This document shows, in pieces, positions 23,117 through 48,217 of a stretch of DNA of 64,000 bases. A program made the translations under genes and the position numbers. This DNA comes from Qipengyuania marisflavi. GTDB lineage: Bacteria; Pseudomonadota; Alphaproteobacteria; Sphingomonadales; Sphingomonadaceae. The stretch is from contig NZ_VCAO01000001.1 in assembly GCF_005884405.1 (NCBI RefSeq), positions 614,304 through 678,303 on the forward strand, written 5' to 3'. The number at the start of each line of letters is the position of its first letter. Position 1 is the first letter of the stretch. The notes beneath the pieces were generated by a model that made no database searches, was not told where the DNA came from, and saw nothing but the letters and a program-made list of their open reading frames with translations.

Positions 23117-23195
23117 CGCTGTCCAAAGGTGAGTTGGCGTTGCCGCCTGCCCCGCCTGCTGATACCGGCGCGCGCTACAGTGAAAGGTGCCTGCA

Positions 23196-24410
23196 ATGTC
23201 CGACATCAAACGTGTGGTTCTCGCCTATTCCGGCGGTCTCGACACCAGCGTCATCGCCAAATGGCTTGAGGTGGAGCGCGGCTGCGAAGTCGTCACCTTC
23301 ACTGCCGATCTGGGACAGGGCGAGGAAATCGAACCTGCACGCACCAAGGCTCAGGCGATGGGCATCCCCGACGATCACATCTTCATCGAGGATCTGCGCG
23401 AAGAATTCGTTCGCGATTTCGTCTTCCCGATGATGCGCGCCAATGCCCGCTATGAAGGCGATTACCTGCTCGGCACATCTATCGCCCGCCCGCTGATTTC
23501 CAAGCGGCTGGTCGAAATCGCACACGAAACCGGCGCCGACGCCATCGCGCATGGGGCCACCGGCAAAGGCAATGACCAGGTCCGTTTCGAGCTTTCCGCT
23601 TACGCTCTGGACCCCGACATCAAGGTGATCGCCCCGTGGCGCGAATGGGATTTGACCAGCCGCACCGCGCTGATCGCCTGGGCCGAGGCGCACCAGATTG
23701 CAGTGCCCAAAGACAAACGCGGCGACAGTCCCTTCTCGACCGATGCGAACCTGCTGCACACCTCTTCGGAGGGCAAGGTTCTGGAGGACCCGTGGGAGGA
23801 AACGCCCGACTATGTCTATTCGCGCACCGACCATCCCGAGGATGCCCCCGACACGCCCGAGTACATCACCATCGACTTTGCCTCGGGTGACGGCGCCGCG
23901 CTGAACGGCACTGCGATGAGCCCTGCCAGCCTGCTGACCGCGCTCAACGAGCTCGGCCGCAAGCATGGCATCGGCCGCCTTGATCTGGTCGAAAACCGCT
24001 TTGTCGGCATGAAGAGCCGCGGCATGTACGAAACCCCCGGCGGCGAAATCTATGCGCGCGCACATCGCGGTATCGAACAGATCACGCTGGACCGCGGTGC
24101 GGCGCATCTCAAGGACGAGCTGATGCCGCGCTATGCCGAACTGGTGTACAATGGCCTGTGGTTCAGCCCCGAACGCGAGATGTTGCAGGCAGCGGTCGAC
24201 CTCAGCCAGCAAAAGGTCAGCGGCACTGTCCGGCTCAAGCTGTACAAGGGCAATGCCAGCGTGGTCGGACGGCGCTCGCCCCATTCGCTCTATTCCGAGG
24301 CGCATGTGACCTTCGAGGATGATGCCGGGGCCTATGACCAGAAGGATGCCGAGGGCTTCATCAAACTCAACGCGCTGCGCTTGCGGCTGCTCGCCAAACG
24401 CGATCGCTGA
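23196..24410 (+). CDS. argG: argininosuccinate synthase
   Basis: A 404-residue ArgG. It joins citrulline and aspartate with ATP, the penultimate step of arginine synthesis. The N-terminal ATP pyrophosphatase loop is AYSGGLDTS, followed by the [13 protein letters not shown] motif and [17 protein letters not shown], and the C-terminal oligomerisation region is complete. The ATG at 23196 has AAAGG nine bases upstream, better than the GTG at 23187. The non-coding structured region begins just after it; no clear argG terminator with a T-run is present. Confidence 0.97.
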
Positions 24411-24439
24411 GCTTTTCGGGCGAATTGCGGCGGACCGTT

Positions 24440-24488
24440 GACTTATCCACCCGTGTCCACAGGGAATTGCGGGGAAAGTGGATAAGTC
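24440..24488. repeat. 11-bp inverted repeat with DnaA-box-like sequences
   Basis: GACTTATCCAC (24440-24450) and GTGGATAAGTC (24478-24488) are perfect inverted copies 27 bases apart. Each arm contains TTATCCAC, one base short of the DnaA box TTATCCACA. A third related sequence, GTGTCCACA, lies between them. It could be a DnaA-binding cluster, the hairpin end of argG mRNA, or part of the RNA element that follows. Confidence 0.5.
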
Positions 24489-24489
24489 G

Positions 24490-25056
24490 CCCCTTGCAAG
24501 CTTGAAGAATCGGTTCGTCAGGCGCAGCTTCAGGTCATCGGAACGGCGCGGGTTTGCCAGCCTCTCGAAGGTCTAACGACTGGAAAGACAAGGGAAATTC
24601 CAAACCGGGAAGACGTGACGGAACCTGTTCCACGCGGGTCTCGAGATCGCCATGCAAAGGACTTCGGTCTGGCGCAAGGTCGGTTGTTGAAGGACACGCG
24701 ACACAGTTCCGAAACGGGTTGGGCCAGCCCGATCGAGCGCCGAGGAAGCGATGGAAGGTCTTCGGACCGGAAACCCGCAGCCGCCTGAGGCTTCGATCAC
24801 CGGCATAGTCCGACCGCGGAACCGCCCGTTGAAGATCGGCCGGGAAAGGAAAGCGAAGGGTCTTCGGACCACAGCGCACCGGACCAGACCGAACGGAGGG
24901 TAGCTCCGGATGCCGATGCGAGCGCTGGTGACAGCACCTGAGATCCACTTCGGTGGAAGGACGGGAAAACACCGGATGCCAAGTTCTCTCCTTCGGGAGT
25001 GACCACGTATCGGTAAGAGTGGGGTCGGCAGCAATGCCGGCCCCATTTCTTTTTCG
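24490..25056 (+). ncRNA. candidate large structured non-coding RNA
   Basis: No plausible protein fits this stretch, but it folds extensively on the plus strand. Five hairpins carry a C(UUCG)G tetraloop: loops at 24663-24666, 24761-24764, 24863-24866, 24949-24952 and 24992-24995. One hairpin has a GNRA loop: GCTG-GTGA-CAGC at 24924-24935. Further stems are CGGGTT/AGCCCG (24715-24731), CGGAG/CTCCG (24894-24908) and CCGGC/GCCGG (24800-24804 with 24839-24843). CGCC/GGCG closes the first UUCG hairpin. The unit ends in an intrinsic terminator. The 5' end is not known; TTGACT at 24438 is a possible -35 without a good -10. GGA occurs 23 times against seven TCC. It does not carry the signatures of RNase P RNA, tmRNA, SRP RNA or 6S RNA that I know. 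Confidence 0.6.
25020..25055 (+). terminator. intrinsic terminator of the RNA candidate
   Basis: TGGGGTCGGC pairs with GCCGGCCCCA (10 bp, one G-T wobble) around AGCAAT, followed by TTTCTTTTT. It is oriented for plus-strand transcripts. There is no protein gene immediately upstream, so a non-coding transcript must be ending here. Confidence 0.85.
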
Positions 25057-25223
25057 CGCCCGGTTCCGCCCCATTTCGCACCCCTCTCCCCCCGCATTTT
25101 CGGTTCGTCCCGTTGGTTCCTCCATCCACGACGAATGGTGGCCGGAATGGGGCAGACAACCGCGGCGTTAACGACTCCCGGCGTGCTGGCCGCTATCAGG
25201 CGGGCATCGAACGGGAACTTCAC

Positions 25224-26563: not shown

Positions 26564-26885
26564 GGTTCACCTCATGGATTTGTGTGAACCGGCCCAGCTA
26601 GCGGGATTGGGGCGTGTAGGAAAATGATGAGTTGGGTGGGCTGTTAGGGTAACGGGAGCGGGGGAGGGGAGACGGAATGCACTGCTTCCGCAAGTTTGGG
26701 GGATTAGATATAGTGTCCCCGGAATTCGTGGCGTCCCCGGAATTCGTGGTGCGGTTCTGTGAGACACATGGGCGGACTCGCTGCTGGCTGAAGAGAACCG
26801 CGTAGCGAGGCATGGATTGGGGGGTGTAGGTAAGCGAAATTCACCAAAGAAGAGGCGGCACGCACTCGCTTGGGGTCTTCTGTTG
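26564..26885. other. non-coding stretch at the island edge
   Basis: No supported gene lies here. The stretch is purine-rich on the plus strand, lower in GC than its neighbours towards 27 kb, and holds a tandem 18-base repeat. Short open frames on both strands lack ribosome sites and family patterns. Confidence 0.5.
26713..26748. repeat. tandem 18-bp direct repeat
   Basis: GTGTCCCCGGAATTCGTG is followed directly by GCGTCCCCGGAATTCGTG, with one difference. Such TGTCCCCGGAATT phrases are familiar to me from repeats near REP-associated IS200-like transposases, but no transposase is present here. Confidence 0.6.
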
Positions 26886-47796: not shown

Positions 47797-47892
47797 GGGG
47801 CCTCCATCATGAACGTGATGCCGCCCATGACGAGAAAGACGCAGGATCGCGCCCATCCCCGTTACACCCGGAACACCCCGCCCGGCTGCGGA

Positions 47893-48062
47893 ACGACGGT
47901 CACAGGCAGGTCTCCTGGCTCCCGGATCAATGGTCGTGCCCCGCCTTCCCGGTTTCCCAGTGGCAATTGAGGCAGACCTCCCCGGTCACAGTTGCGGGGG
48001 CAGCGGGGGATTGGCACCCCCTTCCCTCTTCCGGCCCGATTGCGCGGGCCAACCCATGACAC
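47893..48062 (-). promoter_or_regulatory. cobalamin riboswitch
   Basis: The minus strand contains the B12 box AGCCAGGAGACCTGCC (47905-47920), preceded by the GCCACTGG-like, GGGAAGGC and GGTGCCAATCCCCCGCTG elements of the cobalamin aptamer in the expected order over about 165 bases. It lies 100 bases upstream of btuB and probably shuts off translation or transcription of the operon when B12 is plentiful. I did not identify the expression platform with certainty. Confidence 0.93.
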
Positions 48063-48217
48063 GCAGCGATTTATACGCAGGAATGCTGCGGCGCACAAGA
48101 GCATCTTCATTAAGGAAAACGTGCTATGGGGCGCACATTGTCCCGCTGGTGGACGCCGCCACTCGGGGTCTTCGGGTGTGCGGCTGCTTGGCGTATAAGG
48201 GGGCAACAGGAGCAGAC

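Follow-up and report, generated by a model that had tools for sequence, protein, structure and literature searches.

A putative gene for a large structured RNA of a new class in Sphingomonadaceae, with a promoter that may link it to replication

Large structured RNAs are few in bacteria, and most of them have resisted explanation. OLE, ROOL, and GOLLD share with the RNA described here their size class, an elaborate fold, the lack of a protein and a mostly unknown function, and they come from lineages other than its own. Our subject is a predicted RNA gene on the plus strand of Qipengyuania marisflavi (Sphingomonadaceae), at positions 24537–25052 of the window, by which we mean the whole stretch of DNA that was analysed, 64,000 nucleotides (nt) long. 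It differs from OLE, ROOL, and GOLLD in that neither of two Rfam searches found similarity to them, and in having a replication-type promoter. The closest described systems in the Alphaproteobacteria are found in Caulobacter. In Caulobacter crescentus, the non-coding RNA (ncRNA) CcnA belongs to the CtrA/GcrA cell-cycle circuit (PMC8959179). Both are alphaproteobacterial ncRNAs with a cell-cycle link, which in our case is read from the promoter sequence; however, CcnA is ~182 nt long, whereas the present RNA is ~515 nt, is built of five domains, has its DNA boxes upstream of the RNA, and has a body (terminator excluded) of 423–568 nt, median 485, in 129 homologs. CcnA is located at the replication origin, and for the present RNA the comparison on this point is limited to the GC skew of two relatives. 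The Caulobacter podJ P2 promoter carries GANTC at −24 and the DnaA motif CTCCACA at −82 (PMC4287350). The present promoter has GANTC near −30 and TCCACA near −81, although podJ P2 drives a protein gene.

We consider it near certain, on comparative sequence evidence, that 24537–25052 is a free-standing gene of a large structured RNA. The RNA class appears categorically new, and its mechanism is one that we infer. A first-pass annotation of this DNA had proposed an undescribed large structured RNA on the plus strand, and this is borne out by homologs, by covariation, and by the lack of any Rfam match. In the consensus fold from RNAalifold, the five domains nearly abut and are followed by the terminator. 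Unless stated otherwise, homolog figures refer to the 129 distinct full-length copies. The parts of the RNA are:

24537–25052, plus strand: RNA gene, ~515 nt, with the start placed from the promoter and the end from the terminator
24538–24613, plus strand: domain D1, from RNAalifold, the domain with the weakest support
24614–24716, plus strand: domain D2, with an unpaired conserved UUCC at 24628–24631, from double changes, shuffles and slid controls in 44 homologs
24717–24815, plus strand: domain D3, from RNAalifold, with pair 24734–24795 among the nine significant pairs
24817–24908, plus strand: domain D4, from RNAalifold, with a UUCG hairpin that includes the strongest covarying pair, 24861–24869
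24912–25014, plus strand: domain D5, a three-way junction, from RNAalifold, covariation and column conservation
25017–25048, plus strand: intrinsic terminator, almost invariant, from RNAalifold, terminator prediction and the 44-homolog test

By itself the single sequence is unconvincing, and it is the comparative evidence that carries the case far past chance. The minimum free energy of the plus strand is mildly unusual only (z = −1.75, with 5 of 100 shuffles equally stable), and that of the minus strand has z = 0.30. In contrast, the RNAalifold consensus fold of 25 homologs, with the terminator excluded, gave z = −19.1 for the plus strand (40 column shuffles) and z = −15.0 for the minus strand (20 column shuffles). 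Covariation was judged against a null simulated on a FastTree phylogeny, which roughly kept the number of changes of each column; at E ≤ 0.05, nine pairs were significant, all nine inside the predicted structure and none of them in D1. When all 193,131 column pairs were ranked, structure pairs made up 10 of the top 10, 17 of the top 20, and 23 of the top 30. Two regions were also examined in 44 homologs. In D5 with the terminator, 96.2% of cells were paired compared to 34–43% in slid controls, double changes were seen at 14 of 38 pairs, and 0 of 500 shuffles equaled it on any of five measures. In D2, double changes were seen at all 21 pairs, 89.6% were paired vs. 36–42% when slid, and again 0 of 500 shuffles were as good. 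These 44 come from 62 prepared segments, without the 18 longest and three unmatched loci; the 18 longest are mostly an Erythrobacter/Porphyrobacter-type group by name, which is therefore outside the 44-sequence tests and inside the 129-homolog covariation tests. The RNA thus shows the covariation beyond shuffles and phylogeny that marks a structured ncRNA.

Conservation is greatest toward the 3′ end. Identity reaches at least 97% at 68 positions of 24531–25052, with 29 of these in 24905–25014 and 23 in the terminator region. The near-invariant positions are mostly paired or lie within joints of 1–4 nt, as in the junction of D5 with its conserved joints A24921, CAAG 24980–24983, and CCA 25003–25005. 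Several details of the first-pass annotation were recovered, namely five CTTCGG hairpin motifs (starting at ~24662, 24760, 24862, 24948, and 24991), the terminator, GGCATAGTCCG, and two copies of CCGGATGCC. The annotation had also hinted at alternative folds by pairing of GGCA-tag-TCCG with CCGGATGCC, and this pairing is not conserved: 24802–24812 is almost without conservation, and most of it belongs to the 3′ side of a different predicted helix.

The RNA is widespread in one family. A blastn search with 24411–25060 found matches in 33 of 61 genomes, the source genome included; apart from the source, the matches fell in 32 of 36 further members of its genus, and the 24 genomes from other families had none. 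Across the family, 132 of 397 genomes (source included) and 41 of 96 genera had a match. Conservation and covariation among relatives, whose lack would have spoken against the first-pass annotation, are thus both strong. When 84,980 species genomes were searched with a 3′-end pattern, 113 stretches matched. Among the 80 of these matches that were listed, the genus names were Erythrobacter, Qipengyuania, Altererythrobacter, Tsuneonella, Parerythrobacter, Pelagerythrobacter, Allopontixanthobacter, and Porphyrobacter, and the remaining names were unclassified Erythrobacteraceae, Sphingomonadaceae, Sphingomonadales, alphaproteobacteria, or proteobacteria. Cultured, named strains carry the RNA, for example Qipengyuania flava DSM 16421. 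After ten of the 113 pattern loci that were cut by contig ends had been left out, 157 full-length copies were available, of which 28 were exact duplicates. Model searches (3′-domain, class-wide, and promoter) scored 7–10 candidates per genome. The 3′-domain model, R1, matched 124 of 397 family genomes at E ≤ 1.1e-9; its total of 201 of 397 was not used as a count of the RNA because weak matches (~25 bits) include ordinary terminators. Two such loci (L210 and L211) have similar GC-rich terminator hairpins closing seemingly ordinary protein genes of the family, so the terminator is no marker of this RNA. The class-wide model search gave weak matches in 9 of 289 genomes, three of which belong to the same family.

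As the first-pass annotation had held, there is no credible protein here. A protein on either strand was rejected since there is no conserved reading frame and indels are not codon-like: of 2117 counted against the window copy, just 225 are a multiple of three. The longest stop-free runs in the plus frames (mean 77–86 amino acids) are like those in shuffles (81–82). The absence of a known RNA also held up: in the region, the covariance models of Rfam 15, including OLE, ROOL, GOLLD, RNase P, tmRNA, 6S, and SRP, gave no match at the gathering score and five matches at E ≤ 10, all far under their cut-offs (best E 0.51), and 16 homolog or candidate loci gave none. RNase P RNA, tmRNA, and 6S RNA are each encoded at a separate locus of this genome, and these identities were rejected on that ground. 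A plasmid or phage element was likewise rejected, as no match was found among 72,556 plasmid and 50,697 phage records at the sensitivity of blastn. Literature searches found no prior description of this RNA among the results listed, and the available part of PMC11109978 has none of six taxon names searched for.

Upstream of the RNA is a block conserved as DNA (24437–24530), within a conserved unit that begins at ~24426. Its elements are:

24426–24433, plus strand: conserved block TTGCGACG/A upstream of the boxes, from column conservation
24443–24450, plus strand: box 1, DnaA-box-like TTATCCAC, ~−94 from the inferred start
24456–24461, plus strand: middle box TCCACA, ~−81, with TCCAC 100% identical and the final A 90%
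24478–24485, minus strand: inverted DnaA-box-like GTGGAWAA (here TTATCCAC on the minus strand)
24502–24507, plus strand: −35 element TTGNNN (T in 129/129, T in 121/129, G in 129/129)
24507–24511, plus strand: GANTC (here GAATC), a CcrM-type methylation site by motif, at ~−30
24525–24530, plus strand: −10 element CANNNT, 17-nt spacer from the −35 element (C, A, and last T in 129/129)

The RNA very probably has its own sigma70-type promoter. In a wider set, 41 of 47 sequences fitted the pattern and six did not. Among these 41, five positions never vary: the −35 element keeps its first T and its G, and the −10 element its C, A, and final T. From the position of these elements the transcript would start near 24537, so the start at 24490 in the first-pass annotation is probably ~47 nt too early, and 24490–24536 would be promoter and not RNA. 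Seven of the eight positions of box 1 are 98–100% identical, and the third base is A in 83%; in the inverted box, seven of eight are 99–100% identical, with T or A at the sixth. An RNA stem between the two TTATCCAC boxes was rejected, because this T/A change leaves one position unpaired with box 1 in 42 of 129 homologs, without compensation, and GTGGAWAA is therefore read as a DNA element. GANTC lies between the −35 and −10 elements in 99 of 129 homologs; in ten equally long control windows the count is 0–14 of 129. It is also visible in divergent copies and candidate units. A sequence-only promoter model, R2, matched 161 of 392 family genomes and 41 of 96 genera. In 147 of these 161 genomes it had a single match (eight candidates were scored per genome), which makes the promoter block look specific to the RNA gene.

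To judge by its sequence, the promoter falls in the class of cell-cycle promoters controlled by DnaA and GcrA/CcrM, with TCCAC in 129/129 and GANTC in 99/129. In Caulobacter, a timed class of cell-cycle promoters is characterized by GANTC in the interval from −35 to −10 (PMC4287350), and a GcrA gene is present in the genome studied here. Based on this precedent and on the presence of GcrA, we suggest that DnaA may bind the TCCAC boxes and that GcrA may act inside the promoter together with CcrM-methylated GANTC, which would tie transcription to the passage of the replication fork. The RNA itself might then serve, with less support, as a scaffold or decoy for one or more proteins rather than as a base-pairing small RNA (sRNA), since its near-invariant bases cluster in the folded 3′ portion and short joints and do not form a long unpaired seed. 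Our preferred reading, to which we give a probability of about 0.62, is that of a trans-acting, domain-built RNA with a conserved promoter, a 3′ three-way junction and a terminator, whose expression would be linked to replication and which would be bound by protein. As for its parts, replication-linked control is an even call, and action as a ribonucleoprotein (RNP) falls slightly short of that. If the reading is right, the circuit that governs replication and the cell cycle in Alphaproteobacteria would gain an RNA component outside Caulobacter, and the promoter predicts a link of expression with both DnaA and chromosome methylation state.

Several observations weigh against this reading. Concerning the promoter, box 1 does not conserve the ninth base of the DnaA-box consensus, and the genome shows no enrichment of TTATCCAC (23 sites vs. 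39 for the reversed control). GANTC is absent between the −35 and −10 elements in 30 of 129 homologs, and its register is not fixed, with 44 and 36 homologs in two adjacent registers. Even in Caulobacter, GANTC is within 50 base pairs (bp) in only 31% of GcrA-enriched cell-cycle promoters (PMC4287350). Concerning the RNA, only nine pairs passed the strict tree-based null; covariation may be underestimated here, since all alignments were plain MAFFT and not structure-aware. The longest stop-free runs in the minus frames (mean 112–120 amino acids vs. 95–97 in shuffles) are the one figure that points toward coding. Finally, the invariance of the terminator tells little about function because its shape is common to ordinary terminators, as at L210 and L211.

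The alternative that survives best is an unusually large regulatory sRNA, acting by base pairing in analogy to CcnA. The cell-cycle-type promoter would suit such an RNA, and CcnA itself is a precedent (PMC8959179). However, unpaired runs at 97% identity or more before the terminator are of 1–4 nt only, which leaves no long conserved unpaired stretch, and ~515 nt is far from the 182 nt of CcnA, so we regard this alternative as improbable. It is also possible that the DNA is the functional part, as a site that titrates or recharges DnaA, with the RNA as a by-product. In line with this, no upstream block is better conserved than the boxes, and of the 23 TTATCCAC sites in the genome, two stand at this locus, inverted and 35 bp apart. 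Yet compensatory base changes preserve the ~500 nt downstream, as is explained by pairing in an RNA, and they weigh against a reading from DNA alone, so that we hold the DnaA site to be very unlikely. An origin of replication at the locus is not supported. Of two relatives in which GC skew was sampled, it was clear in one: G030, with an argG-type element, was ambiguous, and G389 had its skew origin near 2.0 Mb, with a candidate unit, whose identity with this RNA is putative, at 1.25 Mb.

Two further alternatives tie the RNA to its neighbors, which from their translations we take to be argG upstream (23187–24410) and an rlpA-like gene downstream (from ~25224). On the one hand, the RNA could be a long leader with an attenuator, in the manner of a riboswitch, of the rlpA-like gene; a same-strand rlpA match does follow in 147 of 157 loci, in 145 of them 150–600 nt past the RNA. 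Seven of the loci lacking a match have <600 nt of downstream sequence, but three others (L057, L108, and L139) have no match in 2.1–5.5 kb, and in L108 and L139 the RNA is followed by a convergent reading frame that ends ~20–40 nt beyond it, so that a co-directional target is missing there. Furthermore, L222 has neither an argG nor an rlpA match in its 4 kb, and no covarying pair that would form an anti-terminator is among the top pairs listed; we give this leader very little credence. On the other hand, the RNA could be a functional 3′ untranslated region of argG, freed by processing, as 153 of 157 loci have a co-directional argG immediately before the RNA, at most 206 nt away. Against this stands a complete and highly conserved promoter between argG and the RNA. 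Moreover, of the loci without argG, two lie at the end of a contig or locus, but L045 and L151 lack a match to it over 1.5 and 3.6 kb of upstream sequence. In L222, the promoter block is found at a different site. We find this origin just as hard to credit. A ribozyme, or a remnant of a self-splicing intron or mobile element, would fit the elaborate multi-domain fold, but is equally doubtful given the position beside argG, fixed in those 153 of 157 loci, and the lack of any plasmid or phage match by blastn and of any Rfam intron or ribozyme match.

The RNA family may reach beyond the argG site. In L222, the profile matches the promoter and the RNA start at E 1.1e-9, together with a match to the 3′ model, both away from argG and rlpA, and L222 is a probable relative of the argG-type RNA. 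In genera g23, g66, and g117, some R2 matches lie 226–639 nt upstream, on the same strand, of 3′-model matches, the pairs being found in G061, G104, G183, G304, G313, and G376. These pairs suggest, and do not show, a wider family, because the 3′-model matches are weak and short (32–40 bits, 55–125 nt) and may rest mainly on the terminator. Three loci of another genus (L219, L223, and L225) have a perfect TTATCCACA, GANTC, a GC-rich body, and a similar terminator near genes that look, by eye, like uvrD. They resemble the argG-type element in box, GANTC, body composition, and terminator motif, and are possibly remote relatives; however, the profile of the argG-type element detects no homology in their bodies (best body match E 0.13) and matches terminator regions in units of other genera. 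Tandem unit pairs were seen in L239, L242 (~1176–1970), and L246, each unit with TTATCCACA and a GGCAGCRATGCC-type terminator. Their bodies differ, GANTC is present in the two listed, and they look like duplicated RNA genes. A bolder reading, which we consider unlikely, would see here a class of large RNAs that is ancient, spans the family Sphingomonadaceae and is coupled to replication. In it, an ornate RNP scaffold would be turned on by DnaA and methylated GANTC once in each cell cycle, and the uvrD-linked and tandem units would be diverged or duplicated relatives of this class.

Some minor observations concern the surroundings of the RNA. Gene order past it breaks up in some clades (L057, L108, L139, and L220), which is useful for dating synteny, and the convergent frame in L108 and L139 resembles, by eye, a D-2-hydroxyacid dehydrogenase. 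Elsewhere in the window, two tandem copies of GTCCCCGGAATTCGTGG are found at ~26716–26750, in a stretch without an obvious gene, and a cobalamin riboswitch is found at 47888–48072 on the minus strand, which at 131 bits is the sole Rfam match at gathering score in the window.
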